NCBI RefSeq assembly: GCF_028751545.1
Contig: NZ_CP071867.1
Coordinates: 2,081,306 to 2,145,305 of the forward strand
From: Gilliamella sp. B3022
GTDB taxonomy: Bacteria > Pseudomonadota > Gammaproteobacteria > Enterobacterales > Orbaceae
Length of the DNA stretch: 64,000 bases
Direction of reading: 5' to 3'
Shown here: piece by piece, positions 22,357-46,184 of the stretch
Layout of the letters: every line of letters starts with the position of its first letter
Position numbering within the stretch: position 1 is the first letter of the stretch
Position numbers and translations under genes: made by a program
The notes under the pieces: model-generated
What the model was told of the DNA's origin: nothing
Databases searched by the model: none
What the model saw: the letters and a program-made list of their open reading frames with translations, nothing else

Positions 22357-23528
22357 AAAGGCTTTATAGTTGGTATGACTTAGATTTTCATCAATATCAA
22401 GTAATTGCAACTTCACAAAGTGATGCAAAAAAACAACTATTAGTGCAAGGTAAAATAGCCATAAAAGTCAAAGCGGGCAATTTTATAACAGCCCATACTT
22501 TTAACCGCTCGGAATTACTGAATATAACGATACAATTGGCAACTATGTTAAAGGCTGGATTATCGATAATTGACAGTCTAAATTTATTGGTCGAAGAACA
22601 ATCTAAACCCCATTGGCAATATTTAATGAATGAAATTGGGGAGAAAATCATAAAGGGTGAATCCTTATCCAGTGCATTATCCAGACATAATTATGTGTTT
22701 TCTTCACTGTATTGTGAAATTATTGCTACAGGGGAACTTACGGGTAAACTTGATGAAAGTTTTGAACAATTGGCCTCATTACTCGAAAAATCCATTAAAT
22801 TACAAAAAAATCTTAAAAAGGCTATGCGTTATCCTATATTTTTATTTTCTGTAGCAATAATAGTCAGCTTAGTTATGTTATTATTTGTTTTGCCAAAATT
22901 TTCAGATATCTATCATGATTTTGATGCTCAACTCCCTTTTTTTACACAATGCATTATTGATATTAGTCATTATCTGCAACAAAATTGGCCAATATACACT
23001 ATCGGTTTTTTTGGGGGGATGGTTGTTTTTCAGTATTATATTAAAAAGCGATATCATACTAAAATTGAAATCGCCTTAGCCAAAATGCCTTTCGTTAATA
23101 AGATCATTCAAACAAGTTGTTTAACTCAAATTTTCCAAACAATTGCAATAACTCAACAAGCTGGAATTCCGTTATTGATGGGTTTAACCGCTGCGGCTAA
23201 TGCTTCTTACCATTGTATTTATCGCAATAGTATTTTGCAAATCATTTCAGGAATTGAGCAAGGACACTCCTTCAGTCATGTTTTACATCAACAACCTTGT
23301 TTTCCAAACTTGTGCCGTCAGTTAATTCATGTCGGCGAGCAATCCGGCACCTTAGATCTGATGTTAAGTCGTTTGGCTCAATATTATGAAGCACAAAATC
23401 AAACATTAATTGAAAATCTATCTCAATTTTTTGAACCTTTATTGATGTTAGTATTGGCAGTGATCATTGGTGGTTTGATTATTGCTATGTATTTACCGAT
23501 ATTCCAACTTGGTGAAGTGATTCATTAA
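22353..23528 (+). CDS. hofC: Type IV pilus inner-membrane platform protein (HofC/PilC)
   Basis: Polytopic platform protein of the pilus machine, 391 residues with two GspF/T2SSF repeats. The first repeat has LATMLKAGLSIIDSLNLL and a hydrophobic helix at about 165-185; the second has QTIAITQQAGIPLLMGLTAAA and a final helix LLMLVLAVIIGGLIIAMYLPIF, the usual PilC ending. Overlaps hofB by 4 bases and the peptidase gene by 1, so translation is coupled across the operon. Confidence 0.92.
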   Translation: MKRLYSWYDLDFHQYQVIATSQSDAKKQLLVQGKIAIKVKAGNFITAHTFNRSELLNITIQLATMLKAGLSIIDSLNLLVEEQSKPHWQYLMNEIGEKIIKGESLSSALSRHNYVFSSLYCEIIATGELTGKLDESFEQLASLLEKSIKLQKNLKKAMRYPIFLFSVAIIVSLVMLLFVLPKFSDIYHDFDAQLPFFTQCIIDISHYLQQNWPIYTIGFFGGMVVFQYYIKKRYHTKIEIALAKMPFVNKIIQTSCLTQIFQTIAITQQAGIPLLMGLTAAANASYHCIYRNSILQIISGIEQGHSFSHVLHQQPCFPNLCRQLIHVGEQSGTLDLMLSRLAQYYEAQNQTLIENLSQFFEPLLMLVLAVIIGGLIIAMYLPIFQLGEVIH

Positions 23529-24250
23529 TGATAATGTTCATAATTCTATGTCTTGGACTTTGTGTGGGTAGCTTTGTTAATGTCGCATACAGTCGTTTTG
23601 TTCCTTCACAAACATTATCTGTTTACCTAAAAGAAATAAGTTTCAAGCATTCAATCTGCCCTACTTGTCAAACTAAATTAAACTATTGGCATTTAATTCC
23701 CATTGTTTCTTGGTTAATTTTAAAAAGGCGTTGTTATTATTGTCAAAACATCATTTTATTCAGATATGTTATATGGGAAATAGTGGTCGCTGTTTTATTT
23801 GTGGTTATTTATTTAGATAAAGGTTTCAGTTATCAAAGTGTCATTTTGATGTTTCTCAGTTGCTATTTTTTACTGTTGGCATCCATTGATTTTAAGTACT
23901 TTTTACTGCCTGATTTTTTTACTCAACCATTGATGTGGTCTGGGTTAATTGCCGCCTATTTCAATCTAACCCTCATTAGGTTAGATGATGCTTTAATTGG
24001 TATTTTATGTGGTTATCTTTTATTGAAATTACCAGCTATTATGTTTTATCTAATTTTTAAAAAACAGGGATTAGGTGGAGGGGATATAAAACTGCTTGCT
24101 GCTCTTGGTACTTGGATTCCTTATCCATTGCTAGCATTATTATTAATAATTTCCTCACTATTAGGTATGCTCTATTATTTATTTCAGAAGAATATCTTGA
24201 AAAAACAATCTTTAACTGATGCCGAGCGTGATAAATCACGCTCAAATTAA
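23528..24250 (+). CDS. pilD: Prepilin peptidase (A24); 3' end altered by prophage
   Basis: Membrane aspartyl protease that cleaves and N-methylates prepilins such as PpdD. The N-terminal methylase part has CVGSFVNVAYSRF and the zinc tetracysteine CPTC...CYYC. Catalytic aspartates are in ASIDFKYFLLPD and GLGGGDIKLL. The final codons (DAERDKSRSN plus stop) lie inside a 768-bp sequence repeated in the prophage, so the C-terminus is probably phage-encoded. Joining the sequence before 24212 to that after 59758 gives an alternative ending SLTGTKLLLLHEITQKL with a stop at 59806-59808. Both catalytic sites are upstream of the junction, so activity is likely kept. Confidence 0.88.
   Translation: MIMFIILCLGLCVGSFVNVAYSRFVPSQTLSVYLKEISFKHSICPTCQTKLNYWHLIPIVSWLILKRRCYYCQNIILFRYVIWEIVVAVLFVVIYLDKGFSYQSVILMFLSCYFLLLASIDFKYFLLPDFFTQPLMWSGLIAAYFNLTLIRLDDALIGILCGYLLLKLPAIMFYLIFKKQGLGGGDIKLLAALGTWIPYPLLALLLIISSLLGMLYYLFQKNILKKQSLTDAERDKSRSN
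24212..24218. repeat. Candidate target-site duplication, tail-side copy
   Basis: TTAACTG, repeated at 59758-59764. Mu-type transposition makes a 5-6 bp duplication; TTAAC followed by TG (a usual Mu-type terminal dinucleotide) fits the tail-side end, but the other end then does not finish in CA. Confidence 0.5.
24224..24243. other. Perfect 20-bp palindrome at the prophage terminus
   Basis: GAGCGTGATAAATCACGCTC: 9-bp arms around AA, 7 bases inside the proposed phage end. Repeated at 24992-25011 in the second copy. No T-run on either side, so a protein-binding site is as likely as a terminator. Confidence 0.6.
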
Positions 24251-24302
24251 GTGATAATTAACTATTTTGTATTTTTCATCATATGAAAACAAATTACAAA
24301 TA

Positions 24303-24984
24303 TTAAGCTTTAATTTGTAAAATGTATTTTTGTAAACTTTCTAACTCGGATTTTGTGTCGTATGTGTAAATCCGAATTTCATCAAAACGTTCAGTGTCAT
24401 TAATTTCCAATTCGTGAGAATTTTCATTTGTTACTACTGTTTTCTTTAGTTCACCAGCTAAATAATATTCAATATGATATTCAACAGTTTCTGGTTTATC
24501 AATATTGCCCTCATTATATGCAATGAGATTATCTTGTTGTATTTCTTTGTTTCTATGTAACCATGTTAATACTATTGTTTCTTGTTCTTTTAGTGTTATT
24601 GTCTCTGTAATAACACCATTAACCTGTAAATTAGCTGGAGGGTATGGTCGTGCGGCTCTTGCGTTAAATTTTAGTGCTCGAATAGGAGCTTTATTTGCAC
24701 TGAGTGTTCCAGTATTAGTTTGTGTTAACTGTTGAACATAAGCAACTTCACCTTTTAAATATTCAATGCCGTCCGTTTCAAATAGGCTATCAAAAAACCA
24801 GATAAACGAATCTTTACTATGTGTTTGTGGTAATGTGTCTGCACATCCCCTTGCTATTGTTACGGTGCCATTTAACTCATCAAATGCATCAATTCGAATG
24901 ATTTCATTACCAATAATAGCTGCGCTGCCAATTGAAACATCTGTCATATTTTTGTTAAAAATCACGCTTAATTGTGTATCTACT
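24303..24984 (-). pseudogene. Truncated duplicate of the tail-tip gene
   Basis: Encodes the last 227 residues or so of the tail-tip protein at 25071-27281 (from VDTQLSVIFNKNMTDVS to the stop), cut off at the repeat junction at 24984. A spurious in-frame start 30 bases further out (antisense to the copied pilD end) would give a 236-residue product, but there is no ribosome site of note. Product of the tandem duplication. Confidence 0.85.
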
Positions 24985-25752
24985 TGATGCCGAGCGTGAT
25001 AAATCACGCTCAAATTAAGTGATAATTAACTATTTTGTATTTTTCATCATATGAAAACAAATTACAAATATTAAGCTTTAATTTGTAAAATGTATTTTTG
25101 TAAACTTTCTAACTCGGATTTTGTGTCGTATGTGTAAATCCGAATTTCATCAAAACGTTCAGTGTCATTAATTTCCAATTCGTGAGAATTTTCATTTGTT
25201 ACTACTGTTTTCTTTAGTTCACCAGCTAAATAATATTCAATATGATATTCAACAGTTTCTGGTTTATCAATATTGCCCTCATTATATGCAATGAGATTAT
25301 CTTGTTGTATTTCTTTGTTTCTATGTAACCATGTTAATACTATTGTTTCTTGTTCTTTTAGTGTTATTGTCTCTGTAATAACACCATTAACCTGTAAATT
25401 AGCTGGAGGGTATGGTCGTGCGGCTCTTGCGTTAAATTTTAGTGCTCGAATAGGAGCTTTATTTGCACTGAGTGTTCCAGTATTAGTTTGTGTTAACTGT
25501 TGAACATAAGCAACTTCACCTTTTAAATATTCAATGCCGTCCGTTTCAAATAGGCTATCAAAAAACCAGATAAACGAATCTTTACTATGTGTTTGTGGTA
25601 ATGTGTCTGCACATCCCCTTGCTATTGTTACGGTGCCATTTAACTCATCAAATGCATCAATTCGAATGATTTCATTACCAATAATAGCTGCGCTGCCAAT
25701 TGAAACATCTGTCATATTTTTGTTAAAAATCACGCTTAATTGTGTATCTACT
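24985..25752. repeat. 768-bp tandem direct repeat, copy 2
   Basis: Second copy; it contains the true 3' end of the intact tail-tip gene and an internal copy of the phage-terminal palindrome. Divergence from copy 1 starts at 25754 (one base, T, is ambiguous at the junction). Confidence 0.93.
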
Positions 25753-27281
25753 TTACTTAACTGACGTTTACTTATTAATACCGCACTTGGTGTAAAGTCA
25801 CATGTTCCTTTTATTGTAAAATCAGCCCCTTCAGTTGCCGTTTGTAATAAATAGTTAATTGACTGTGAATTTGGCTGAGCAGAAACTAGGAGCATATAGC
25901 CTGACTCGTTATTAACATCATGATTTGATAACTGGCTCATTGCAAAATAGGGAGATTCGAATAACATATAATTTTCAACTGGCCTTGGTGTTGTATCTTG
26001 AACTAGCCCTGTTCCAGATTGATTACCACTGTTATAAACTGTATCTGCCAATCCAAAAACATCCTGAATTGCGGTGATTTCAATCATTCCATCTTCGTGC
26101 TCGTTAATAGAGCCAACCCGCATGACCATATCTTTGATATCCCTGTCTGGCAGTGATACCCGAAAACAATCAGCAGGAGTTAATATTTCACCGCGGCGAT
26201 CAAACTGAATTGTTAAACGCCTTAAACCCGCAATTCCAGATTCCAGTTCTCGCTGTGCAACACGTGCAGCCAGCTCAAATGTGGGTAGTGCTTTATATTC
26301 AATAGAGCTACTGATTAAACCAACAGCTTGAATTGCACCTAAATTTTGTGCCCGAACTTCACTATCCTCGTTCGTTACTGGATTATGCCATTTTACGGCA
26401 ATTTCATTTGGTACATTATCGGAAGCGCTACTATCGTCGTCCTGTACCACTAAAATACCATTATCATAATTAAACAATGGTAAATCTTCTTTTTTGTAAT
26501 TATCACGAATCAGTTTTAGTTTAATTTTTCCTGTTGTTAAATCGGCATATTGTACTGCGCCTATATGATCTAACACCTGCTGTATAAATGTATCTAATCC
26601 ATCTTGTCGATTGTAACGAAAGCATAAACCGAATTTTTCATTATATAGAATATCAGCAGCAGTTTTAAATGAATCTAAATCAAAATCCTCATATAGTTGC
26701 AATCCTCGTCCCCAATCATTGTTAGTTCCGCACTCTATCAAAATATGCGCAGGATTCATTGCATGAATAGTTCTTAAATTGCTATTTATTCCATTATCTT
26801 TTTCATGAATTGTTGATGTATCATCATATAACATGATGATACATTTCTCTGGGTACCATACTTCGTTATTTGACCAACCTTGTGTTGTACGTCTGACTCT
26901 ATATTTCCACGGTTTTGGACTTGCTGAATAAGCACTAATTAAACCGTCAAAGAACGTCGTAACCATGCCCCGAAAACCAGGCACAACGCCGCCCAGTAAA
27001 TTTTTTACACGACTAGTTGGCTCCTGATCTGCATTACCCATTGCAATTTCAAATATGCCTTTAATTCCACCTTCACCACCAACATTAGTACCACCAAACA
27101 AATTCGGCTTATCAATATAAATTGATTTGCTAACAGTGACTTCATTTGCTTTACCTGCAAAAACTGTTTTATCATCAGCAGTAATGGCAACTAACTCATT
27201 AATCGGTCCACGCCCAAGGCCTGACTGAATACTGAAGTAGTATTTATAGCCAATAGTTGTTTTCTTTTTTTTACTGCCCAT
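25071..27281 (-). CDS. Phage tail tip protein (phage-tail_3 / J-like)
   Basis: A 736-residue protein, last gene of the late operon, probably the central tail-tip component that contacts the host. It begins KKKTTIGYKYYFSIQSGLGRGPINELVAITADDK, the usual opening of putative tail proteins in siphovirus-type transposable phages. It continues through a phage-tail_3-like region (FCLRYNRQD-type segment near 245, LAARVAQRELESGIAG near 350, RGEILTPADCFRVSLPD near 383). The C-terminal about 150 residues look like a fibronectin-III-type domain (PYPPANLQVNG...EYHIEYYLAGE). SD GAGGTAAGT is next to the ATG. No separate tail fibre gene follows. Confidence 0.8.
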   Translation of the reverse strand: MGSKKKKTTIGYKYYFSIQSGLGRGPINELVAITADDKTVFAGKANEVTVSKSIYIDKPNLFGGTNVGGEGGIKGIFEIAMGNADQEPTSRVKNLLGGVVPGFRGMVTTFFDGLISAYSASPKPWKYRVRRTTQGWSNNEVWYPEKCIIMLYDDTSTIHEKDNGINSNLRTIHAMNPAHILIECGTNNDWGRGLQLYEDFDLDSFKTAADILYNEKFGLCFRYNRQDGLDTFIQQVLDHIGAVQYADLTTGKIKLKLIRDNYKKEDLPLFNYDNGILVVQDDDSSASDNVPNEIAVKWHNPVTNEDSEVRAQNLGAIQAVGLISSSIEYKALPTFELAARVAQRELESGIAGLRRLTIQFDRRGEILTPADCFRVSLPDRDIKDMVMRVGSINEHEDGMIEITAIQDVFGLADTVYNSGNQSGTGLVQDTTPRPVENYMLFESPYFAMSQLSNHDVNNESGYMLLVSAQPNSQSINYLLQTATEGADFTIKGTCDFTPSAVLISKRQLSKVDTQLSVIFNKNMTDVSIGSAAIIGNEIIRIDAFDELNGTVTIARGCADTLPQTHSKDSFIWFFDSLFETDGIEYLKGEVAYVQQLTQTNTGTLSANKAPIRALKFNARAARPYPPANLQVNGVITETITLKEQETIVLTWLHRNKEIQQDNLIAYNEGNIDKPETVEYHIEYYLAGELKKTVVTNENSHELEINDTERFDEIRIYTYDTKSELESLQKYILQIKA

Positions 27282-27283
27282 AC

Positions 27284-27502
27284 TTACCTCTTCTGTACTC
27301 TTTGTTTTGCCAGTTCAACAATACGAATAGCTAACGCATCACCTGTACTTAAAATTGTTTCGCTATCAATCCCACCATTTTGAACAAAATCATTAAAACT
27401 CAGTTTATAGTGTTTAAACCAAGCTTTTAGACCCCACGCACAACCACCTCCTCGGCGAATATCGGCCATAGTTATCCATATACTATTTTCTAATTGCTTC
27501 AT
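27284..27502 (-). CDS. Small tail-module protein
   Basis: 72 residues from ATG 27502 (MKQLENSIWITMADIRRGGG). The pattern MADIRRGGGCAWGLKAWFKHYKLSFNDFVQNGGIDSETILSTGDALAIRIVE is common just before the tail-tip gene in D3112/B3-type transposable phages; its role is not known. It overlaps the upstream gene by 20 bases in another frame and ends 2 bases before the tail-tip start. A longer frame reaching 27622 lacks conserved sequence and was not used. Confidence 0.65.
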   Translation of the reverse strand: MKQLENSIWITMADIRRGGGCAWGLKAWFKHYKLSFNDFVQNGGIDSETILSTGDALAIRIVELAKQRVQKR

Positions 27503-27713
27503 AACGATAATTTCCATAAGCCAGCACAAACCAATCCGCAGTCCAACAGTCACCAAAAAACACACACTGTGGTGTTCCTTCTGTTGGCTGAGGATAATCA
27601 AAGTCATCAAACGTTGCTGCATTAACCTTATTATTATGTTTTTTGGCTAATGCTTGATTTAGAAAATAGGATGCAACCAGTACAACAACAAAACGCGCAA
27701 TCGCCCACCACAT
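27483..27713 (-). CDS. Small membrane-associated tail-module protein
   Basis: 76 residues from ATG 27713, chosen because AGGAGG lies 6 nt upstream. A hydrophobic N-terminal helix (WWAIARFVVVLVASYFLNQAL) is followed by a short polar linker and an aromatic C-terminus (CVFFGDCWTADWFVLAYGNYRYEAIRK). A protein of this type is regularly found between the BR0599 protein and the tail tip in siphovirus-type Mu-like phages. I know of no assigned function. Confidence 0.65.
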   Translation of the reverse strand: MWWAIARFVVVLVASYFLNQALAKKHNNKVNAATFDDFDYPQPTEGTPQCVFFGDCWTADWFVLAYGNYRYEAIRK

Positions 27714-27723
27714 AATGAACCTC

Positions 27724-28536
27724 CTAGAATAATTTAGTAATGCTATACGGTGATTTGCCGGGCATATGTGGACAACCACCATAATTCAAATGGTTATTAA
27801 ATTTATTTTCACAGGTATTAATTGTATTATCACAACCAGGGTATACATTAATTATCAAACCAACACTTAAGCCGTAAGTTCCACCATATAGGCTTAAATT
27901 ATTGTTGTTATGCATGCGAATACCTCGCCTTTCTGTTAGACCTTCAAACTCATATTCAATATAGCCACCACTAAAGTAACCATTATTAATATCTTGTGGT
28001 ACATTAAATGTAATTGATTTACCATCTAATGCGGTGATCTCTAATCCTGAAATGACATAATGACGGGCTTTAACCTTACATCTACTATCATAAAGTGCAT
28101 GAGGGCACTTTCTGCCCCAGGTCAACCTTAATCCCTGACGACCAAATGTATTAACAATATTAGTGGTGATAATTTTGGCTTCACCAATTTTTTCACGTTT
28201 GACTTCAGTGATATTACCTACCCATACCACCCGTAACTCTTGTTGATTATCATGATAATGCATGCGATAAATTCTAATTTTTACCGATGTACTCGGTGGC
28301 ACACCTCGGTAAAAAGAAACCACTTTATTCGTAACCGGTAAGATAATTTCGACATTATTATTACTGCTTGCTGATAATCCATTATCACTAATTGCAATCG
28401 CTTCCCATAGCGCATTATTAACCATTATTGAGCGATCGGCATTTGTATAGTGGTAATACAAATTCTGCCTTTTAAACTCATACAGTGTTAATGGTTGACC
28501 ATTTGCAACAGAATACTCAAACTCATTCCAACTCAT
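27724..28536 (-). CDS. Phage BR0599-family / DUF2163 tail protein
   Basis: 270 residues. The N-terminal half (EFEYSVANGQPLTLYEFKRQNLYYHYTNADR) and the centre (RVVWVGNITEVKREKIGEAKIITTN) are DUF2163-like. The C-terminal third, with CPHALYDSRCKV, YPGCDNTINTCENKFNNHLNYGGCPHMPG, is the Cys-rich BR0599 signature, which also occurs in gene transfer agents. It is thought to be a distal-tail hub component. It overlaps the upstream gene by 14 bases. Confidence 0.8.
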   Translation of the reverse strand: MSWNEFEYSVANGQPLTLYEFKRQNLYYHYTNADRSIMVNNALWEAIAISDNGLSASSNNNVEIILPVTNKVVSFYRGVPPSTSVKIRIYRMHYHDNQQELRVVWVGNITEVKREKIGEAKIITTNIVNTFGRQGLRLTWGRKCPHALYDSRCKVKARHYVISGLEITALDGKSITFNVPQDINNGYFSGGYIEYEFEGLTERRGIRMHNNNNLSLYGGTYGLSVGLIINVYPGCDNTINTCENKFNNHLNYGGCPHMPGKSPYSITKLF

Positions 28537-30184
28537 ACCGTACCTCCCTAAATGTAACGTTTATTTTTGCCGTGCCGTCAGCATCAGTTAAATGCTCCCA
28601 TACAACTTTGTCATCATTTAAACGGCATAGACGCATTATGGATATTTTGATTACTTCTTGGCACATAAATGCAACTTTTTTATTGAGCAACAACCGAAGT
28701 CCACCTTTGTTATTGCTTTTTACGTTGACAATTTCACGATATAAAATGCGGTTACCTCTCAGTAAAATTCTTAAGAACTGTCTACCGAGATAAGTTTCAG
28801 TCATGTTATTTTGTTCAATATCTAAAATTTCACTGGTTGCATCATCAACTAGTTTGCAATCATTGCTAAACGAGGGTACAAAAATTGGTTTTTGGCGACC
28901 ACGGAGGGCATAAAACAAGGCACGCAGTTCAAGTTGTTTATTACGACCATTAATTAAAAATTCATGGGATTGAGTAATAAAAACACGATTTGCGCTATCT
29001 GAGTAGTACACGATACCAGTTTGATTGTCGATTTCACGTCGCATTGATTCATATGAAACATGTACATCATCTGACCAATCTGGTTCTTGCTCCAGTACAT
29101 AAAAATTATTGTACATAGGTAGTTCAACATTAACGTTAATGTCATTTTTTTCAACAATTAAAAATCGTAACTCTGCGGTTGCTAATTCATCTGTTCGCCT
29201 GATAATTTTAGGTGGTTCAGTCAATTTTGCCGATTTAATAGGAAATACTTTGGCACCTTTTAAAACAGCTGTATATATTGGTTCGGATAGAGTAATACTT
29301 GAATTTGTAATTGACTCAATATTGGACACAATCGTATTACTATCATTCATAACTGTTAGATTACCGCCAACACGATAGTCTCGCCCGATAGTTGATAAAT
29401 AGATTGTCTTATCACCTGGTTTGATTTCTTTATCCAGTAATGCACTATCACTATAAATCGGCAATGAAAATGAGCTTAAATAGTTATGAAATAGTATATT
29501 TTCAATTTGTCGACGTTCATGTTGATGGATAAGTATTTGAAATTCAAATGTGCGACGTGGTGTTAATCGCATTGCTACTCGCTGTTCTGCCCCTGTTTGT
29601 GATTGATGTATATTGGTTTTCCATTCTAATGTTTCAGTAATACCTTGCGACCAATTCGGTGAGAGGGAAAGCGGTAGCGAACGATTACCGCTAACAACTA
29701 ATGTAACGGTTTCAGCGTTTAAAAAATGAAACGAAATTGTGCAGTCAATGCTATCCGTGCCATGACTATCAATATCAATCGATAACACTTTTAAGCTTAA
29801 TCGACTAAATAAAAGTGGTAACGCCACATTACTGACAGTGACCCCTTGTTTGTCACTATAGGTAATATCAGTCAAAATTTTACTGCTGAAATAACCGTTG
29901 AAAATTGATACTTCTATAGTGCGTTGATTACTAACATAACCAACATCAATAGTGGATGGATTAATATAGAGCTTGTTATAAATAATATTTAAAAATGATT
30001 GTGTAATGTAACCTTTTCGCACATTGAATAACTGCAACGGTATTCCGCGTGTAACTGGCCCTGTTTTGTCTTCAACGACAAAGGAGAGACGAGCCATACC
30101 TTGGTATTGTTGCAAATCAAAGCTGCGCTGACCACGTAGCTTTTTCAAACCATTAATAACGTATCCTGTATGTTTGGTACTCAT
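28523..30184 (-). CDS. Phage tail protein (distal tail, siphovirus type)
   Basis: 553 residues from ATG 30184, which overlaps the upstream stop (ATGA); a GTG 3 bases earlier is possible. Beta-rich, with RVAMRLTPRRTFEFQILIHQHERRQIENILF near 200, LPIYSDSALLDKEIKPGD near 240, GAKVFPIKSAKLTEPPKIIRRTDELATAELRF near 310 and RALFYALRGRQKPIFVPSF near 430. This is the large protein found between the tape measure and the BR0599 protein in siphovirus-type transposable phages. The biochemical role (hub or Dit-like) is inferred from position. Confidence 0.65.
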   Translation of the reverse strand: MSTKHTGYVINGLKKLRGQRSFDLQQYQGMARLSFVVEDKTGPVTRGIPLQLFNVRKGYITQSFLNIIYNKLYINPSTIDVGYVSNQRTIEVSIFNGYFSSKILTDITYSDKQGVTVSNVALPLLFSRLSLKVLSIDIDSHGTDSIDCTISFHFLNAETVTLVVSGNRSLPLSLSPNWSQGITETLEWKTNIHQSQTGAEQRVAMRLTPRRTFEFQILIHQHERRQIENILFHNYLSSFSLPIYSDSALLDKEIKPGDKTIYLSTIGRDYRVGGNLTVMNDSNTIVSNIESITNSSITLSEPIYTAVLKGAKVFPIKSAKLTEPPKIIRRTDELATAELRFLIVEKNDINVNVELPMYNNFYVLEQEPDWSDDVHVSYESMRREIDNQTGIVYYSDSANRVFITQSHEFLINGRNKQLELRALFYALRGRQKPIFVPSFSNDCKLVDDATSEILDIEQNNMTETYLGRQFLRILLRGNRILYREIVNVKSNNKGGLRLLLNKKVAFMCQEVIKISIMRLCRLNDDKVVWEHLTDADGTAKINVTFREVRYELE

Positions 30185-31143
30185 CACTCAATTACTCTAT
30201 AAAAGTAGCCAAGGTCATAACTGTTATCTTCATCTTGAACTTTATCTGTGACAGTTTGAAACATTGTTGCCGCACAGCAATAATATTTTTCACCATTAAT
30301 TTCACGAATAGTACCAGGAACAACACCATCAATTCTGGCAACATAAAAATCAGGAACTACACCGATGCGTTGATATTGTTTGCTAGCCAAATGCAGATAA
30401 ATGGATTGTGGCACCAACGTTATCAAATTATTAAATTGAGATAAACTTGCCTCAACAAGCAACATATCAGGGTGGGGTTTATAGTCACGCCGAATTGTTG
30501 CATCACCAATACCCATTGCGCCTATTCCTTCATAACCTGACTCATTTGCGCCAAAAAAATAATCTTTGTCCTCAACTCTAATAACGTTAGCGAATGTACG
30601 CCAAGGGAGCGATCCGATATACAAGTACATATCACTGGTGAAGGGATATGATGCGTAACTTGTATCATTAGTGTTTGTTGAATGTGTTCCGTACGCATAA
30701 TGACCACCATTGTAAATTCCATCTTTTTTTATTGTTCCAATACCAAAATGACGAAAACGACGAGAATCGACACGTACAACAACATGAATATATTGTGCTG
30801 TTGCTAAAAATGTATATGATGCAAATGGTTCATTATGAAAATTAGTACCAGCACCCCAATAATAACGATAGAAATTTGCTTTACCGTTAAACGAGCTTGA
30901 GCCTGTTTGATTGTCCCAGGGTAAATTTGCTTTAAACTGATTATTGATGGCAATGTACAACGTGGGGAGTGAATTTGATGTGCCAACTTTTAGGCTCCAA
31001 AAACATTTTTCATTATGTAAATAGAGTTCTTTTTCTTTAGTATTAATTTTATCAACAACCCACCCATTAACTGATTGTGCAAATGTCGCCAATTTTGATA
31101 ATAAATCCATAACCGACGAGGCGTTACCCGTTTGATATGCCAT
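30184..31143 (-). CDS. Phage tail protein, paralogue 2
   Basis: 319 residues, start MAYQTGNASSVMDLLSKLATFAQSVNGWVVDK. It shares its opening and general layout with the next gene upstream (MAYQSGIADNEIDLLDKLNLFL), so the two look like diverged paralogues. Middle and end are rich in aromatic residues and glycine (FYRYYWGAGTNFHNEPFASYTF, GIGAMGIGDATIRRDYKPHPD), as in virion surface proteins. Proteins with this MAY-TG-A-DLL-KL start sit after the tape measure in related phages. Function unknown. Confidence 0.7.
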   Translation of the reverse strand: MAYQTGNASSVMDLLSKLATFAQSVNGWVVDKINTKEKELYLHNEKCFWSLKVGTSNSLPTLYIAINNQFKANLPWDNQTGSSSFNGKANFYRYYWGAGTNFHNEPFASYTFLATAQYIHVVVRVDSRRFRHFGIGTIKKDGIYNGGHYAYGTHSTNTNDTSYASYPFTSDMYLYIGSLPWRTFANVIRVEDKDYFFGANESGYEGIGAMGIGDATIRRDYKPHPDMLLVEASLSQFNNLITLVPQSIYLHLASKQYQRIGVVPDFYVARIDGVVPGTIREINGEKYYCCAATMFQTVTDKVQDEDNSYDLGYFYRVIE

Positions 31144-31157
31144 GTTTAGCTCCTATC

Positions 31158-32096
31158 CTATATTTTTTCAATTGCAAAAAAATCAATATTTGTTACACGA
31201 AAACCGTTTTGAAAAATAATAAATTCGCGACCATCATCGGTTTTAATCGTATCTTCTGCCGCTCGACTTAATCCTGGTACCCAGTAAACACCATCTAACG
31301 CTCCCCAAAATTGAGTTGCACCTTTTGTCACGTCAACAATGGAAACAGGATAAAGTGGTGAGTAGCTATCAGGTGATGCAGTTAATGCATTGATTTTTTT
31401 ATTGCCATAATAATAAAATTGTTCAATACCTCTTGGATAAACTAACATTGTTTGGCTACCTTTTGAACCATAAAACTGTTGCCATGATTGCGCTGGGGTA
31501 AATACATAAAAATGATTGTTACGCGGGTCGATAATTGAGGAAAAATAATCTGTTGTGATTGAATATCGCAGTAATTCATTATTACAACTACCTGCAATGA
31601 CAAGTGGATAAGGGTACTCATTTGGCAATGCGTTTGGTAGCATAAATCCGCAATAACAACTTGAATAAACAGTTGTCATTTTTGTTACCACAACAAAACG
31701 ACGATTATTAGCAAAAAACCAGTAATGTAGTGGATTATTATCAGCAAATAGTCCAACTTGTGTGCAATTTAACATACCGCTAAATATGTCATTGGGTTGA
31801 TTGATTAATTCAACATTAAAGTAGGTTCCACCGCAGAAATAAAGATTATAAGTATCATTTAAAATGCTATTATCTGTTTTACACGCAACATAAATATTAT
31901 TGCCAACAGTCGCTCCCGGCGCACTCCATGCATATGATTTTCGTTTTGCTATAGTTGCTGTAGCTGCAGTTTCGCCGCTGTAAATTTCTGTCCAGTTATC
32001 ACCTGTTTTAACTAATTCACTATCAGTTGTTAAAAATAGATTTAATTTATCCAGTAAATCGATTTCGTTATCTGCAATTCCACTTTGATACGCCAT
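31158..32096 (-). CDS. Phage tail protein, paralogue 1
   Basis: 312 residues, start MAYQSGIADNEIDLLDKLNLFLTTDSELVKTGDNWTEIY. Paralogue of the following gene. Cysteines are frequent (CNNELLRYS, SCYCGFMLP), and the sequence is rich in Tyr/Phe/Asn. It is translated immediately after the tape-measure gene (3 bases). The N-terminal TGDNWTEIY-type motif is typical of these tail proteins; the ligand, if any, is unknown. Confidence 0.7.
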   Translation of the reverse strand: MAYQSGIADNEIDLLDKLNLFLTTDSELVKTGDNWTEIYSGETAATATIAKRKSYAWSAPGATVGNNIYVACKTDNSILNDTYNLYFCGGTYFNVELINQPNDIFSGMLNCTQVGLFADNNPLHYWFFANNRRFVVVTKMTTVYSSCYCGFMLPNALPNEYPYPLVIAGSCNNELLRYSITTDYFSSIIDPRNNHFYVFTPAQSWQQFYGSKGSQTMLVYPRGIEQFYYYGNKKINALTASPDSYSPLYPVSIVDVTKGATQFWGALDGVYWVPGLSRAAEDTIKTDDGREFIIFQNGFRVTNIDFFAIEKI

Positions 32097-32099
32097 AGA

Positions 32100-35000
32100 T
32101 TAAATCTCCAAATCTTGTTTAATTGTTTGTCTATTTGCTCGAATAAATGTTTTAAATGCTCTACCACCCGTCACACTATTAATGCCACGACTGACCATAT
32201 CACCCGCATCAATGAATAGTTCTTGCTGAATAACGGGACTTAATACAGTTGGTGAGCTTTTGCGTTGTTGGTTATCATCAAGTAATGGCGCTTTTGGAAT
32301 ATTGACATTGCTAACAGGTCCACCTGTTGCATAATAATGTAATCGTCCCGTATTGATAGCGTGAAGATAGTCGAGACCGTATTTTTTCACAGATTCAGCT
32401 TTCACAACAAATTCACCGTTTGATAAGCGAGCAGGGATTGAATCTGATGTGCTTGTACCGGGTCCACTGATATAACCACCAGTCGCTGCCACAACAGATG
32501 CTGCACCGGCTAACCCAGACATAGCAGAACTACCCGCACTAGCCGATGTAATTGCTGTGTATAAGGTCGCTGCACCACTTGAAAATGCGCCTGCCATTGC
32601 ACCTGTTAATCCTGCGGTGCCCGTTGTCATTGCGGTAGTTAATGAAGTGCCCAGTTCAACCGAACCAACACTTGTCGCAGAGGTTATTGCTGTGCTCATC
32701 AATTCTGCTGAAGCGATAGCACTGGCATTTTCTGCTGTATCGGTTATTGAGCTAAAAAGTGATTTACCCAAATTACTGAGTTGATTCATGGCAATATCAG
32801 CAAGACCTTTACTTGCTACCTGAGCCATTGCTGATACGATACTTTGTGCAAGGTTTAATAATGCGTCTTTTAATTCAAACGTACCTTTTGCTAAAGAATC
32901 AAGACTACCTTGGATACCGCTTTGCAACCCGTTTTTAAATGCATTGGTTAATGCATCGGTAGTTTTATTTAGTTCTGCAATTTGCAGCTGAAGTGTAGCA
33001 AGTGCTTTTTGTGCATTTTCCCCAACTTGACCCGGAAGCGTTGTCATAGCTTGCAAAGTAGGTAAATATTTGGCAAGTTCTTGCGCTGTTTGCTTGTGCA
33101 AATCAACTAATTGGCTTTGTCCTTCAATTTGTGTAATTAAACCAGCAGTTACTTGTGCTTGTATACTTTGTTCTTTTATTGACTGTTGTGATTGTGCTTG
33201 CTGAACTTTTGCTAAAATTTCGGCAAGATTTGCTTCAGCTTTTTTTAGTGGCAATAACTGGTCAATTAAATCAATACCTTCAATATTTTTATTGGCTTTA
33301 AGTTGCGCTATAACGGCTTGATACCATCTATCAATTTCTGCTGTTTTAATTCTGGTTGGGTCAAACAATAACGAATTGAGTTGATTTTGTAATTCGTCAT
33401 TAAGTTTTTTATTTTCGTGTGCTGTAATTGCATTATTTGCCGCATTAGCTCGATTACGTTGCTCTAACGTTAATTTTTGAGAATCAATCAACGTTTGCCG
33501 AGTTGCATATGTTTTTTGTGTCTGCTTATCCACTTGTGATTCCAGCGATTTTATAAATTGTTCTGTTTCACGTGCTGCAGATTTTGCCGCTCGAGCTGAT
33601 TCTTGTATTGCTTTTTTCTTTGCTTCGTGCGCATCTATCAATTTTGCATTAGCGATGATTTCTTTTTTGAGCTCTGGGCTAGCGTTTTTATACTGACCTT
33701 TTTCTATTTCATAAAGTGCTTTAGCAACTGCTGTGCTTTTTTCTTGTAACGCAACTTTATTTTTTAATTGTTCGTTATATTGTCTTAGCTGTTTATCCGT
33801 GATTTCTTTTACATCTTTATCATATTGACCGCCTGAAAATGATTTACCGTCTTTTGATTTAACCCCTTGTGCTTGTAAATCTTTACGACCCTTTTCATCG
33901 GCCCACAGCGATTCATATTTTTTACGTAATTCATCAACAGCTTTAGCTTGTTTTTCGGCATCACTGGCATTTTGTTTATGCAGCTCATCAAGCTCTTTTT
34001 GGGCATTGATTGCTTTTTCATTAATTACATCTGTGTCATGCTTTTCTTGTGCTTCTTTTTGAAGTTTATCTCGTTGAGTCTGTTTTTCTTGTAATGCTTT
34101 ATCATCATTTTTAGTATATGGAATAGATACTGACCCAGGAACAATATAAAAACCTCTATTTTTAGCTCCCTCCATTCGTTCAATATCTTCGTCTGAGCTT
34201 GATAACCCTAAACTAAATTTTAGCTCTTTTTTAAATCCTTCACCTATATCACTCACGCCATTTTTGAAAAGGCGCCACGCATTTTCTAACCAATTGAGCT
34301 GTTCTTTCATCTTATTAGCGCTGACTTCCATCTCTGAAGCATATTTATCTGTAGCGATTGCAATAGCCTCTTCGGTTCTACCTTGCTCTTCTAATGCGCT
34401 TATACGCTGATAAGTAGCCAGATCTAAAAAGTGATATTGTTTATTACTTTCAACAGCCCAGCTTGTGACCGAATTTTCAATACCTTTAAATGATTGAACG
34501 GCGTCTTGGGCACTTTTTTCTGTCACAGTTGCCATATAGGCTGATGCAGTAGCAATATTTTCAATCGTTTTTGCTGATAATCGCCCCGCTGATGTCAGTT
34601 CTGCAATAACACCACGTGTTTCACTGTAGTTATGATTAATTTTACCGATACGCTGAGACATAGCCTCAAGCCCGCCTGCGGTAGCACCGGCATAATTACC
34701 CGTTGAAATTAAGGCACGATTAAACCGCTCTTGGTCTGAAATTATCGTACTTATCACTTGGGACATTTTGTAAAAAGTCGCGATGAAAACACCCACCGAT
34801 AATGTGGCTGCACTAAATAATGGCGGTAATCGTCCAGTCATGTTGCCAATTGTCAGCAATGAATTTCCCGCTGATGCAAAATTACCACTCGATAATTGTT
34901 TAAACATACTGATGATGCTACGACGGGCGCCTTTGGTATTTAAATCTAATTTTTTAGTACTTTCATTGAGCGTTTCAACCGTTGATAATGCAGCACGTTG

Positions 35001-35432
35001 ATTATTGATTTTCCCAAGATAATCATCAAACGTATCAGTATCAATCACGCCTGCTTTTTTGGATTTCCTTAATTTGCTTTCTAGCTCATCTAAACGACTT
35101 AGACCTTTTGTAGCAGGATCAATACTAGCAAGTAATTTGTCTAAACCTTGGCGCAGTTTTTCAACTTCTTTTTTATGCGCTTCAGCTGCTTTAGCGGCAA
35201 TACTTTGTGCTTTAGCTTGTTTTTCAGCAGCAGCGGCAGCTTGCGCACCACGGTTCATTGCCTCAGTTTGTGCCGTATAAACATCTTTGATGCTTTGAGC
35301 ACTTTTTTTGTTAGCATCTTGAGCAACATTTGCTGACTCTTTCAGTTCAGCATTTAATTGACTGATATTATCTTTTGCTCTATTCACATCAGCCGTGAAT
35401 TTCATTGCAATATTCATATCGTTATTAGCCAT
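32100..35432 (-). CDS. Tail tape measure protein
   Basis: 1,110 residues, the longest gene of the prophage. It sets the length of a non-contractile tail and is threaded through the tail tube. A coiled-coil Ala/Lys/Gln-rich N-terminus is followed by a prophage tape-measure domain (GNYAGATAGGLEAMSQRIG, TIENIATASAYMATVTEKSAQDAVQSF near 240-300). Long coiled coils run from about 430 to 800, and the hydrophobic Ala/Ser/Thr-rich C-terminal part ends in GGYISGPGTSTSDSIPARLSNGEFVV, the lambda-type C-terminal motif. It follows the frameshifted chaperone gene, the usual order. Confidence 0.92.
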   Translation of the reverse strand: MANNDMNIAMKFTADVNRAKDNISQLNAELKESANVAQDANKKSAQSIKDVYTAQTEAMNRGAQAAAAAEKQAKAQSIAAKAAEAHKKEVEKLRQGLDKLLASIDPATKGLSRLDELESKLRKSKKAGVIDTDTFDDYLGKINNQRAALSTVETLNESTKKLDLNTKGARRSIISMFKQLSSGNFASAGNSLLTIGNMTGRLPPLFSAATLSVGVFIATFYKMSQVISTIISDQERFNRALISTGNYAGATAGGLEAMSQRIGKINHNYSETRGVIAELTSAGRLSAKTIENIATASAYMATVTEKSAQDAVQSFKGIENSVTSWAVESNKQYHFLDLATYQRISALEEQGRTEEAIAIATDKYASEMEVSANKMKEQLNWLENAWRLFKNGVSDIGEGFKKELKFSLGLSSSDEDIERMEGAKNRGFYIVPGSVSIPYTKNDDKALQEKQTQRDKLQKEAQEKHDTDVINEKAINAQKELDELHKQNASDAEKQAKAVDELRKKYESLWADEKGRKDLQAQGVKSKDGKSFSGGQYDKDVKEITDKQLRQYNEQLKNKVALQEKSTAVAKALYEIEKGQYKNASPELKKEIIANAKLIDAHEAKKKAIQESARAAKSAARETEQFIKSLESQVDKQTQKTYATRQTLIDSQKLTLEQRNRANAANNAITAHENKKLNDELQNQLNSLLFDPTRIKTAEIDRWYQAVIAQLKANKNIEGIDLIDQLLPLKKAEANLAEILAKVQQAQSQQSIKEQSIQAQVTAGLITQIEGQSQLVDLHKQTAQELAKYLPTLQAMTTLPGQVGENAQKALATLQLQIAELNKTTDALTNAFKNGLQSGIQGSLDSLAKGTFELKDALLNLAQSIVSAMAQVASKGLADIAMNQLSNLGKSLFSSITDTAENASAIASAELMSTAITSATSVGSVELGTSLTTAMTTGTAGLTGAMAGAFSSGAATLYTAITSASAGSSAMSGLAGAASVVAATGGYISGPGTSTSDSIPARLSNGEFVVKAESVKKYGLDYLHAINTGRLHYYATGGPVSNVNIPKAPLLDDNQQRKSSPTVLSPVIQQELFIDAGDMVSRGINSVTGGRAFKTFIRANRQTIKQDLEI

Positions 35433-35434
35433 TA

Positions 35435-36063
35435 TTATTGCTCTCCGCGTAACTGTTTTACAAACTTTGTAACTTGTTTACCACCATTAAAGCCAACACA
35501 AATATCTTCAACTCTGTTGGCTCGTTCTCGATTTTGTAACTTAATTAATTCATCGTAATACAGCAGTAATTGGCGTTGCGTATAATGCGGTAACTGCTGT
35601 GGATCATGTCCGTTTTTAATTAATAGTGTAAAAACTTCACTCCAGCTTACTGATTTGCCTGTTTTGCAGCGTTTTGCCGAATGATTTTGCGAGTTACCGC
35701 GTTCATAAAAAAACGAGAGTTAACAACCCACCACCAATCAAGTAATTGCAAACCATCTTCATATAACAACGCTTCAATAAACGAAATCGGTTTTTGAATA
35801 GAGGTACTGATTAATGAATAAACCAATTCTAAATTACCCATAATAATTGTGTCGGCTTGCTCAATAGTGATTTTGTTTGTACCGTTCATTTCATTCACAA
35901 TTAATGCAACAAACTGGTCAATCTCATTACTGATTGTTAGTGCATCTTTAAATGAATATTCACGTACTGTAATTGTTTCACCAGCTAGCACGATCTCACG
36001 ATTCGGCATTAATGTTGCTAAATCATTTGATTCTTCTTTTGTTGCTGTCACTTTTTCTGCCAT
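35435..36063 (-). CDS. Tail assembly chaperone GT fusion, made by -1 frameshift
   Basis: A second open frame (-1 relative to the chaperone) runs from about 35735 to TAA at 35437-35435 and has no ATG, GTG or TTG. It therefore needs frameshifting. A perfect slippery heptamer T-TTT-TTT (minus strand, 35713-35707) is in the right phase. Slipping there gives a fusion of about 209 residues (119 from frame 0 and 90 from frame -1). A second candidate, A-AAA, is at 35665-35662. The extension reads WSEVFTLLIKNGHDPQQL...VKQLRGEQ. Lambda G/GT and Mu use the same strategy at this location, directly before the tape measure. Confidence 0.78.
35647..36063 (-). CDS. Tail assembly chaperone (G-like)
   Basis: 138-residue frame-0 product. 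Mostly helical: ETITVREYSFKDALTISNEIDQFVALIV, then ISFIEALLYEDGLQLLDWWWVVNSRFFMNA. It sits between the tail tube and tape-measure genes, where phages place a chaperone that coats the tape measure before tube assembly. A fraction of ribosomes are expected to shift frame near its 3' end to make the longer form listed separately. Confidence 0.75.
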   Translation of the reverse strand: MAEKVTATKEESNDLATLMPNREIVLAGETITVREYSFKDALTISNEIDQFVALIVNEMNGTNKITIEQADTIIMGNLELVYSLISTSIQKPISFIEALLYEDGLQLLDWWWVVNSRFFMNAVTRKIIRQNAAKQANQ

Positions 36064-36135
36064 GTTATTTACCTACTAATAAAATTAGAGAGTTGAATAA
36101 TTAGCGGTGACACATCACCGCATAATAAAATAAAT

Positions 36136-36897
36136 TTATTTCGCCTTTTGAACGTATGAGCCAAAATAACCAAGTGAACTATCCTTGTTTTGACTCATAT
36201 CAGCCAAGACCGTGGCAGTAAGCGGTAATTCACCGTATCCCTCATTGTGTAGTAACGAAAAGTTAGAAATTGGATTGAATTTAACGCGGAATAGCTCCAC
36301 AATTACATGTTCATTTTCACGGTCAGTATTGATACCATCAAGCATAAACCAACGCTCAGGCGGTTGACGGGTAAAAATGCCCAAGCTTTCAGTCTTAGCA
36401 TATGAATAATCTACCGTTGCTGTTAATGCTTGTGTAGTTAATAATTTGATTAATCCTGCATAGGCTGATTCGATTTCATAATCTGTGCCTAATACTAATG
36501 TAGTTCCATCAGCAATTTTTAACTCAACATCAGCAACAAAGGGGTTAGCTAACTTTATGCGGTCACCAATGACTAAGTCGGCTGGTAATTTTTCATCAGT
36601 GACAATACCTGCCTCAACAGTAATTTTTTCACCATAAAGCGCTAACGCAATGTTTTCGATTGACCAATCTTTTAGCGTTAAGTTTAACGTGCCACTTTTA
36701 CCTAGTGTTAATTCACCAACTTGTAAGCGTTGTCCTGTGTATGATTCATTTTGTGTCACGGTTTCAACACTTAACTCCATCTCGCAAGAGTCAGCGGTAC
36801 CCACATGCCGAAAGGCATTAGGTCGAACGGGTGAATTGGCGGTATTACGGGTGGCAAGATTTATGGTACCTTGTAAACTCATTAATAAATCTGACAT
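36136..36897 (-). CDS. Major tail tube protein
   Basis: 253 residues, beta-rich. LLMSLQGTINLATRN at the start, LTLGKSGTLNLTLKDWSIENIALALYGE near 65, then LVLGTDYEIESAYAGLIKLL (a pattern common in siphovirus tube proteins) and a C-terminal VELFRVKFNPISNFSLLHNEGYGELPLTATVLAD. AGGAGA precedes the ATG. There is no sheath gene anywhere in the cluster, so the tail is non-contractile. It lies between the terminator protein and the chaperone, as expected for a tube subunit. Confidence 0.8.
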   Translation of the reverse strand: MSDLLMSLQGTINLATRNTANSPVRPNAFRHVGTADSCEMELSVETVTQNESYTGQRLQVGELTLGKSGTLNLTLKDWSIENIALALYGEKITVEAGIVTDEKLPADLVIGDRIKLANPFVADVELKIADGTTLVLGTDYEIESAYAGLIKLLTTQALTATVDYSYAKTESLGIFTRQPPERWFMLDGINTDRENEHVIVELFRVKFNPISNFSLLHNEGYGELPLTATVLADMSQNKDSSLGYFGSYVQKAK

Positions 36898-36916
36898 ATC
36901 TTTCTCCTAAAATTAT

Positions 36917-37366
36917 TTATCGGCTACCGATGAAGTGTTGGGTTTGAAATGAATCAATCCAAACCAGCACGCCATTTTGAAAACCTAACGTTTGCCCACC
37001 AGTCCAACTAACTGGGCGAACGCCGTCAATAAACTGAACTGTTTTACCAATCAACAAATCGCGCACAGCTCCAATCACTGGGTTAGCTAGCTGTTTAACA
37101 TTTTGAATATTGGTTGCTTGGCTAGAAATATCACGAGCAACAACCACAACACCAAAATTAACACTGACTGACTGCCGTGTACCTGCGGGCTTATCGTTGG
37201 GTGTTTCTTTACCAAGCAAAACGTAAGCCGCTGGTGTCGGCGCTGAAGTTAAATCGGTTAACTTACTGTATTCAGCACTAGTACCAACAAAAACTAAGGT
37301 TTTATCCGCTAATAGGCTTCTTAGCTTTTCAGCAATCACTGAAACATCAAATGGTGCGCTACTCAT
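36917..37366 (-). CDS. Tail terminator protein (Gp37-like)
   Basis: 149 residues. VIAEKLRSLLADKTLVFVGTSAEYSKL at the start, then AAYVLLGKETPNDKPAGTRQSVSVNFGVVVVARD and a C-terminal GQTLGFQNGVLVWIDSFQTQHFIG. This is the Gp37-like tail terminator pattern of Mu-related phages: a ring that caps the finished tail and joins it to the head. It overlaps the DUF1320 gene by 4 bases. Confidence 0.75.
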   Translation of the reverse strand: MSSAPFDVSVIAEKLRSLLADKTLVFVGTSAEYSKLTDLTSAPTPAAYVLLGKETPNDKPAGTRQSVSVNFGVVVVARDISSQATNIQNVKQLANPVIGAVRDLLIGKTVQFIDGVRPVSWTGGQTLGFQNGVLVWIDSFQTQHFIGSR

Positions 37367-37884
37367 CGTCCAAAATCCCGTAATGTGTTCATATCAAATA
37401 CTCTTACCGGTCCAGTCTGTTTTGGTACACCACCTGCAACAGGCAATGCATCATCAATGCCTAGTGAATATTTCCCTTCAGCGACCATTTTTAGAAAGCC
37501 CAGAACTTGTTTGTAATCACGCACGATAGGATCGCTTTTTTCATCAGAAACACGATTGCGATGTAATTTGTAACGAACAATAATGCGTGCCCAATCTGTC
37601 AATAATCGAGGCACAACAGTTAATGGCAGCTTATGCCCACGCTGACGCAAAAAACCATTGATTTCAGCTTCCGAATCGTTGATTGACTCAGTAATGCGCG
37701 AAATCGTTGCATGAGCCGCAGCCACATCATCCGTCGACCAGGAAGACGTATCTTGTTTATGAATAATTGCACTAAGTAAATCACTCGAAACAGGGATCTC
37801 ACCATCTTGAGCAACTGTTTGCGACAGTTCAATAAGACCCGGGCGCTCAGCGAGGTTAAGCAATGTAATATATGGAACATTCAT
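37363..37884 (-). CDS. DUF1320 (gp36-like) head completion protein
   Basis: 173 residues, helical. VPYITLLNLAERPGLIELSQTV at the start, SWSTDDVAAAHATISRITESINDSEAEINGFLRQRGHKLPL near 48-90, and LLTDWARIIVRYKLH. This is the DUF1320 pattern, a head-tail connector component. It lies between the major capsid and tail terminator genes. The family opens with a similar helical segment in Mu gp36. Confidence 0.8.
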   Translation of the reverse strand: MNVPYITLLNLAERPGLIELSQTVAQDGEIPVSSDLLSAIIHKQDTSSWSTDDVAAAHATISRITESINDSEAEINGFLRQRGHKLPLTVVPRLLTDWARIIVRYKLHRNRVSDEKSDPIVRDYKQVLGFLKMVAEGKYSLGIDDALPVAGGVPKQTGPVRVFDMNTLRDFGR

Positions 37885-37935
37885 CTTATCTCCCTCAAAC
37901 CAACAATAATTTATTGTTGGTTTTAGTTCACATTA

Positions 37936-38862
37936 TTATCCATTTGCTGGAATAACATTTTCAAACAAATAGCCCGCATCTTTAGCCACAACTAGCTCTT
38001 TGACCGATTCACCGACTCGAACACGTTGACCACCACGTAAACCGATATCAGGATCAACAATCGAACCCGAAACACGATCTTTAAATTGAGCTGTATAACC
38101 GAACGTCACACCACCTTTAGTATTTGCTAATTTATTGCGTACCGTGAATGATGCTTTATTGCCCCAAGCACGAAGTAATGCTGGCGATTTACCTGGTTTT
38201 GCACTATTTAAAAATGCATCACCGACATAAATAGCTTCTAACTCTAATAAGTCAGCTAAAAATCCGAGAGGAACTAAACCACTTTCACCGGCATTTCCAT
38301 GATATGCTGAAACAATCTTTGGATGACGACGTAATATTGTGGCAACTCGACGTCCTAGTGTGCCGATATTTGGACGCTGAACCATTGCATCGAATGCATC
38401 CGTTATTAATGCTACTGGGTCACTATCAGGATTATTCCATTGCTGTGCAGAAGTTAATGTTTGTTTATTGCTGTAATTTGCACCATTAAATAGCAAATTT
38501 GCAGCTCGAACCTCACGATCTAACAAAATTAAATCAGTCGTGGCCTCAACGGCATGACCAAGTGGGTTATAGCCTGTAATGGCTGTATCAATATCATCTT
38601 GAGGGACAGGGCTATCGAGTCCCCAATCTTCAACTGAGCTTTCTTTTTCTTTGGCACTAAACTCAACTTGATTCGGTTGTGACGTCCTACCAACTTTGGT
38701 ATTAGGCAAAGTAAATCGCTCTGAAAAATCAAATTCAAGCCATTTAAATGATGTGCTAGAAACAGGCACACGGGGCAAAACCTCATCGGCAATTAACTTA
38801 TTATTACGGTAACCGATAGCAATTGCAGTCAACTGCGGTTCAACGGGAAAAGGACGTTGCAT
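37936..38862 (-). CDS. Major capsid protein
   Basis: 308 residues, no obvious cleaved delta domain. AIAIGYRNNKLIADEVLPRVPVSSTSFKWLEFDFSERF at the start, then ILLDREVRAANLLFNGANY, RRVATILRRHPKIVSAYHG and a final VGESVKELVVAKDAGYLFENVIP, as in capsid proteins of Mu-like siphoviruses (HK97 fold expected). The scaffold is supplied by the internal start in the protease gene. AGGAG is 6 nt before the ATG. Confidence 0.85.
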   Translation of the reverse strand: MQRPFPVEPQLTAIAIGYRNNKLIADEVLPRVPVSSTSFKWLEFDFSERFTLPNTKVGRTSQPNQVEFSAKEKESSVEDWGLDSPVPQDDIDTAITGYNPLGHAVEATTDLILLDREVRAANLLFNGANYSNKQTLTSAQQWNNPDSDPVALITDAFDAMVQRPNIGTLGRRVATILRRHPKIVSAYHGNAGESGLVPLGFLADLLELEAIYVGDAFLNSAKPGKSPALLRAWGNKASFTVRNKLANTKGGVTFGYTAQFKDRVSGSIVDPDIGLRGGQRVRVGESVKELVVAKDAGYLFENVIPANG

Positions 38863-38923
38863 ATAAAACTCCTATTTATAAAATTGTTTATCAAAGACCA
38901 TGGACCATTAGTTAAATAAAAGG

Positions 38924-39283
38924 TTAAGCTTGTTTGCTTGGTGCAATCCAAATAGTGCCTAACTCATCGGCATCACCCGCAACTTCGGCATAGCCAATAA
39001 TAAAATCACCTGACATTGCTTTTTTAGCTCGACCATCGGCATTTGCTGTGATTGGATCACCAATCGCAATTGTTTCGCTATAAAAAACTTGTGCCAACCC
39101 ACTGCGCACAACATCAAACACTTCACCGTCACCACCACCAACAATTGTTGATACACCGATTAATAATGCGTTACCGTCAATCGCTGTTTTTGCTAGCCCA
39201 TCTTCACTACCATGGCACACAATTAAACGGGGTTTGATTTCGCCTTCAGCGATTTTTGCTACTGTTAATCCTGGAATATTCAT
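38924..39283 (-). CDS. DUF2190-like capsid decoration protein
   Basis: 119 residues: GNALLIGVSTIVGGGDGEVFDVVRSGLAQVFYSETIAIGDPITANADGRAKKAMSG and IIGYAEVAGDADELGTIWIAPSKQA. The short beta-barrel-like, Gly/Ala-rich pattern is that of phage capsid cement proteins (DUF2190 type) which decorate and stabilise the head. It lies between the protease/scaffold and capsid genes, the standard place. Confidence 0.75.
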   Translation of the reverse strand: MNIPGLTVAKIAEGEIKPRLIVCHGSEDGLAKTAIDGNALLIGVSTIVGGGDGEVFDVVRSGLAQVFYSETIAIGDPITANADGRAKKAMSGDFIIGYAEVAGDADELGTIWIAPSKQA

Positions 39284-39348
39284 ATAAAAACCTTTTGGTT
39301 AAAATTAAAATGATGCTGATATTAATAATCAGCCTGTAATTAATGCTC

Positions 39349-40425: not shown

Positions 40426-40430
40426 AAAAA

Positions 40431-40457
40431 ATGCTCCAACAAATTGATATAGAGCAT
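40431..40457 (-). promoter_or_regulatory. Hairpin covering the protease-gene ribosome site
   Basis: 6-bp stem ATGCTC/GAGCAT with a 15-nt loop; the minus-strand 3' arm contains GGAGCAT, the Shine-Dalgarno of the gene starting at 40425. Confidence 0.5.
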
Positions 40458-40480
40458 CATGACTTATTTTGAGAAAAGGG

Positions 40481-40504
40481 TAATCTGAACGCGGGCAGAT
40501 AATT
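40481..40504 (-). promoter_or_regulatory. Late-promoter motif, copy 1
   Basis: 24-bp sequence with core TGAACGCGGGCAGAT, 21/24 identical to 48659-48682. It lies 56 bp upstream of the protease start, against 62 bp for the holin copy. Candidate binding site for a Mor/C-type activator of late transcription. Confidence 0.55.
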
Positions 40505-40656
40505 TTTTAATGATTTGGAAAGGGGAACGGCAAAATAATAGAAGAAATATACACTAAAAACTTATTATAAAGCATTTACAACACGATTAAAGTGATTCGT
40601 AAACAAACTAATTAGCCTTTTTTAGTAAAGTGGCTTAAAACGCGTTATATTGCGTT

Positions 40657-41139: not shown

Positions 41140-41236
41140 TTTTTCACCTATACTAGTTTGTATGTACGGGCAGCTTCCGCCAAAGCCTCGAATCCCACGT
41201 ACAGCGACCCAATCGTGGCGGTGATTGGGTTTTATT

Positions 41237-46182: not shown

Positions 46183-46184
46183 AA

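Follow-up and report, generated by a model that had tools for sequence, protein, structure and literature searches.

Transposable phages must avoid self-destruction, and Mu does so almost perfectly. Among about 10 million insertions of wild-type Mu no self-insertion is reported, while Mu without MuB formed Mu-Mu junctions at 85 sites (PMC7350765); Mu has also been termed "fairly, but not entirely, immune" (PMC2837660). In Ab30, a P. aeruginosa phage of the D3112 group, 0.4% of events are reported to strike a phage copy, joining phage ends to internal phage sites, and its right-end domain D9 spans 700 bp while the adjoining domain D8 is the second densest in insertions (PMC5977238). According to the same source, Mu packages from the left, with a right end whose variable length ranges from a few hundred bp to 2-3 kb. 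Outside phages, tandem direct duplications also arise in maize, where the Ac transposase, acting on reversed ends, joins one end of an element to a target close by (PMC3744419). In the open-licence PMC literature we found no transposable prophage described with a duplicated terminus and no transposable phage in Gilliamella, both weak negatives; in PMC13331135, "mu-like" occurs as a keyword only.

The prophage described here lies in a window of 64,000 nucleotides from Gilliamella sp. B3022, where it occupies positions 24217..59655 (35,439 bp, or 34,671 bp without a surplus terminal copy). From its gene content it reads as a complete-looking B3-like transposable prophage. The gene set is that of the transposable siphophage type (TnpA, an AAA+ transposition protein, tape measure and J-like tail protein), and both terminase subunits, portal, protease, major head protein and holin are also encoded. 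The predicted DDE-type transposase TnpA is located at 53363..55144 (+ strand; phrog_310, E 1.9e-85), the AAA+ transposition protein TnpB, with a putative MuB-like role, at 55144..56379 (+; phrog_296, PF13401, AAA_22), a Mu Gam-like end protection protein at 56602..57192 (+; phrog_491) and a Mor-like late activator at 59147..59509 (+; phrog_532). TnpA, TnpB, Gam, Mor and the structural genes all look complete as open reading frames. A comparison of the ORF map with B3 showed divergent arms, with early genes read toward one end and late genes toward the other. Pseudomonas phage B3 (Beetrevirus, AF232233) has in common with the prophage these two arms, the TnpB-TnpA order, TG...CA ends, a Mor-like gene as the outermost early gene, a tail gene near the other end and, as reported in PMC8705779, a 6-bp target duplication. 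B3 differs in carrying further genes beyond its J homologue, in having no duplicated end in the record ends inspected, and in its host, which in the present case is Gilliamella. TnpA of the prophage shares 60.5% identity with its counterpart in Pseudomonas phage Komp_PAO1_1 and 31.8% with the B3 protein; on this comparison of TnpA, the prophage is not filed in the genus Beetrevirus.

The limits of the prophage were determined from empty sites in the related genomes G002, G011 and G014. Here, the pilD alignment stops at 24216 and the downstream alignment begins at 59656, with an overlap of 6 bases. The prophage thus extends from 24217 to 59655 with TTTAAC as its 6-bp target, the left copy lying within pilD at 24211..24216 and the right copy at 59656..59661. 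The target duplication had initially been given as the 5-bp TTAAC; both the empty sites and paired ends correct this to 6 bp. Flanks share 6 bp in all nine prophages for which both ends could be paired, namely the present one, G007, G008 (ends on two contigs), G009, G019, G020, G028 C68, G029 and IMG/VR 2899604519; this count leaves out G017, where one late and two early ends lie on different contigs with unpaired flanks, and an unpaired late end at G028:C16. Further, the same terminus stands beside differing host flanks in 10 of 10 distinct late ends of relatives for which flank is available. The prophage ends are TG...CA, and TGATAAAT is present at both of them, 12 bases in. In the Gilliamella genome (G000) the early end was found once, besides one 22-bp chance match, and searches with the early end and with the 768-bp unit described below revealed no second prophage copy, which eliminates such a copy as a source or recombination partner. 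An end-like 20-bp match at G000:C1:2203714-2203733 was discarded as its surrounding sequence (L137) has no other likeness to an end.

The late, tail-side end of this prophage is present twice. Positions 24217-24984 and 24985-25752 are adjacent direct copies with no mismatches across 768 bp, and the match at period 768 runs for 769 bases, leaving a junction ambiguity of 1 bp. The start of the unit coincides to the base with the late terminus as fixed by the three empty sites and by eight relatives with paired ends. The initial annotation had claimed an identical 768-bp repeat, a 1-bp ambiguity and a start exactly at the prophage/host junction, all of which is borne out. The outer, surplus copy (24217..24984) has the structure host|terminus..x, where x is a site 768 bp inside the phage, whereas the inner copy (24985..25752), which is collinear with relatives, reads x|terminus..x..rest. 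At the inner junction (24984..24985, x|TGATGCC) the exact phage terminus is therefore joined without homology to an internal site of the same phage. No further match to the unit was found beyond both copies in the 2,599,312-base single-contig genome (E <= 0.001). It is also the sole exact tandem duplication of period 30-5000 in 464,000 bases of this genome (the window and 20 stretches of 20 kb), and the 768-bp duplication by itself accounts for all 670 100-mers that are repeated in the window. Each copy contains a terminal near-palindrome (24224..24243 and 24992..25011) which includes the TGATAAAT motif common to the early end. This palindrome was rejected as an essential end element, being absent from the late ends of the diverged phages in G007, G017, G019, G020, G028 and G029.

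On the host side, the phage interrupts the prepilin peptidase gene pilD (23528..24250, + strand) ahead of a conserved-looking C-terminal segment (IIPFGPF...). After the common ...KKQSLT, the 33 C-terminal residues kept in G002, G011 and G014 are gone and 10 codons follow instead. That the last 10 codons of pilD are altered had been noted before; they are new in the sense that they are phage-terminus sequence, taking the place of 33 residues. Judged from this truncation, type IV pilin processing is probably lost. On the phage side, the duplication had been described as cutting the tail-tip gene. This applies to the surplus outer copy, of which only the 3' part remains (24303..24984, - strand; mechanical ORF 24303-25013), but not to the inner gene at 25071..27281 (-; phrog_1101, E 1.6e-237), which encodes a whole J-like tail protein of 736 aa, is collinear with relatives and is 96% identical over residues 1-736 in G008 and G009.

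Related prophages carry this end in single copy. The suggested comparison of the tail-tip 3' end in G008, G009 and the IMG/VR loci L108-L110 (two of these loci seem to be the G008 and G009 prophages again) showed a collinear tail-gene end, a single terminus and then host DNA. L114 ends at the terminus, and L111-L113 are uninformative on its copy number because they end 86 bp short of it. We then searched flanks of other transposable phage ends for phage DNA. In Gilliamella, none of 10 distinct late ends and none of 16 early ends had a flank (<=600 bp) matching the phage of the window, a survey in which the diverged relatives' own DNA could be missed. Among 23 B3/DMS3-type (Pseudomonas-type) late ends from IMG/VR, three had no usable flank and none of the remaining 20 lay inside its own phage, with a weak 53-bp flank match at L172 (E 7e-4) taken as chance. 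Pattern matches inside phage genes (L113, and the + strand matches of L153 and L089), chance matches (L148, L149), flankless ends (L114, L128) and repeat entries of prophages present in two collections were dropped before counting. Five further places stayed uncounted: the early ends L090 and L092, which did not match the pattern, and G027:C15:446, G028:C35 and G028:C11, for which there were no loci. The B3/DMS3 survey included a further 8 early ends, and phage DNA was seen in the flank only at L163. At this locus (positions 3556-3725) a B3/DMS3-type late end lies 120 bp from a DMS3-type early end, both pointing outward, which represents either two prophages in tandem or a phage genome circularized through its host overhang.

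The x|terminus junction has the shape of a transposase strand-transfer product, and the duplication is probably the scar of a self-insertion by this B3-like phage that was later resolved, as far as the sequence can tell. The transposase would have joined the late end of one phage copy, in direct orientation, to the internal site x within either that copy or another one, in an event that would escape target immunity. Three resolutions may be envisaged. A nested full-length insertion could lose about 34.7 kb through homologous recombination between both copies. Alternatively, the late end of one sister chromosome could be joined straight to the other sister, or autointegration could yield a 768-bp circle that recombines back in. 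As a third route, the variable end of the headful could include 768 bp of phage flank when a nested copy is packaged, and the next infection would then pair the outer late end with the early end; Mu-like headful packaging by the present phage is assumed here. All three fit equally, since each gives host-[end..x][end..x..rest]-host and a single target duplication, and the resulting phage, read from its sequence, has a complete tail gene and two late ends that are identical in sequence. An intact two-ended nest, in which x would be duplicated over 6 bp and joined to a second early end, is absent from G000. As the early end is single there, no intact nested copy exists and only a resolved product is possible. 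All three resolutions require that the early-end/x junction be missing, but they then leave no independent trace of it, a point against self-insertion. The initial annotation had proposed a self-targeting or one-ended transposition event that involved no recombination between homologous sequences. The terminus is indeed joined 768 bp inside the phage; "one-ended", however, is too narrow, as a two-ended nest followed by loss, or the headful route, leaves the same sequence. In the same way, the absence of homologous recombination holds for the x|terminus junction while the later resolution may have proceeded by it. Insertion of a mini-element [terminus..x] as a unit beside the prophage was rejected, with no TTTAAC at the inner junction and x not ending in CA. 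Cleavage at a pseudo-end was rejected too, because the closest end-like motif (25722-25739) does not have the spacing of a real end.

Known systems resemble this event only in part. Ab30 likewise has phage ends joined to internal phage sites, but its reported self-insertions occurred in virion DNA during lytic growth and were not retained in a prophage (PMC5977238). If the scale of its end domains D9 and D8 carries over, x, at 768 bp from the late terminus, would fall immediately beyond the quiet zone (PMC5977238). Mu-Mu junctions in Mu without MuB are alike, whereas the present prophage carries a full-length-looking TnpB gene. The maize Ac case involves two nearby elements, a cut-and-paste hAT transposase and 8-bp duplications (PMC3744419), as opposed to one presumably replicative phage and its own interior. 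By analogy, the wild-type Mu record of none in about 10 million would speak against self-insertion (PMC7350765), and no such scar was observed at the other surveyed phage ends (10 late and 16 early in Gilliamella, 20 late of the Pseudomonas type).

Another objection to self-insertion is that an untrimmed contig overlap would yield an identical sequence. If the assembly broke at the terminus, a pilD contig running 768 bp into the phage and a contig starting at the terminus could have been merged without trimming. We regard such an artefact as unlikely but still serious. Assembly error had already been named as the main alternative, and this was if anything understated, as six contigs of related phages stop at the late terminus, three of them exactly (L114, L168, L170) and three one base outside it (L180 and both G010 contigs), although IMG/VR contigs may have been trimmed. 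The artefact would also explain why both copies are without differences, and 768 equals 3 x 256; some long-read assemblers use 256-bp bins. On the other hand, the genome forms one closed-looking contig in which the phage is present once, so that no repeat forced an assembly break, and there is no second exact tandem duplication in 464 kb. This last observation equally weighs against an ordinary end-joining duplication that started at the terminus by chance. Its 1-bp junction homology is compatible with end joining, but the chance of a random breakpoint landing on the exact terminus is only ca. 1e-4 as a rough estimate, which makes this explanation extremely improbable. The exact terminus and an arbitrary x without homology would likewise be accounted for by misrepair of the end at integration, with host-side synthesis copying 768 bp of the phage before ligation to the displaced strand starting at the terminus. 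A displacement of 768 nt followed by ligation to an unresected flap is, however, long for repair, and we know of no described case of such end misrepair; we therefore consider it very improbable.

If self-insertion is accepted as the origin of the duplication, the position of x may be asked about separately. Of the phage interior, the strip at 25545-26045 of the window, some 560-1060 bp in from the terminus, most resembles both the late and the early end. When likeness to both ends is combined, the highest-scoring 300-bp bins fall at x, and the only interior match of at least 14/18 to the late-end 18-mer sits 13 bp from x. With dinucleotide-shuffled ends, a top match <=200 bp from x was obtained for both ends in 0 of 300 trials (7 of 300 and 9 of 300 for the ends singly) and the local likeness sum around x was reached in 0 of 300, for a window that had been picked after seeing the data. 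The close relative G009 has its best bins in the same region, but five of five diverged relatives do not, and in these single end-likeness scores of 13.5-14.5 arise elsewhere by chance compared with 12.5 in the present phage. It is very doubtful that x was not random, in the sense that pseudo-ends in the strip would have drawn the transposase past target immunity and the redundant late end would have been passed on via the variable end of the headful.

If real, the locus represents a natural lysogen in which the outcome of failed immunity has been retained near a phage end. Such a self-insertion would be survivable because the tail gene is whole on the inner side. It would further provide a natural test of which of two identical ends the transposase uses and of whether the packaging overhang can bring an additional end into a new host. 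As an artefact, the duplication would instead illustrate a mode of assembly failure at transposable-phage ends.

Two additional observations concern the ends of related phages. In the two-contig genome G010 (L128, L129, L138, L139, L091), each contig ends one base outside a phage late terminus, and these late ends are the same over 1,024 bases. When that base is added to the end of contig 2 (...TTGGA), the result is TTGGAT, which is also the 6-bp flank of the early end in the contig-1 prophage; on this sequence match, the end of contig 2 probably joins that of contig 1. Across the diverged phages of G007, G017, G019, G020, G028 and G029, the early end (window 59500-59655) is 95-98% identical to that of the present phage, while late ends are about 70-74% and tail proteins about 48-50% identical. 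The early end is thus far more alike than the late end and tail protein, which indicates that the two ends evolve as separate modules.
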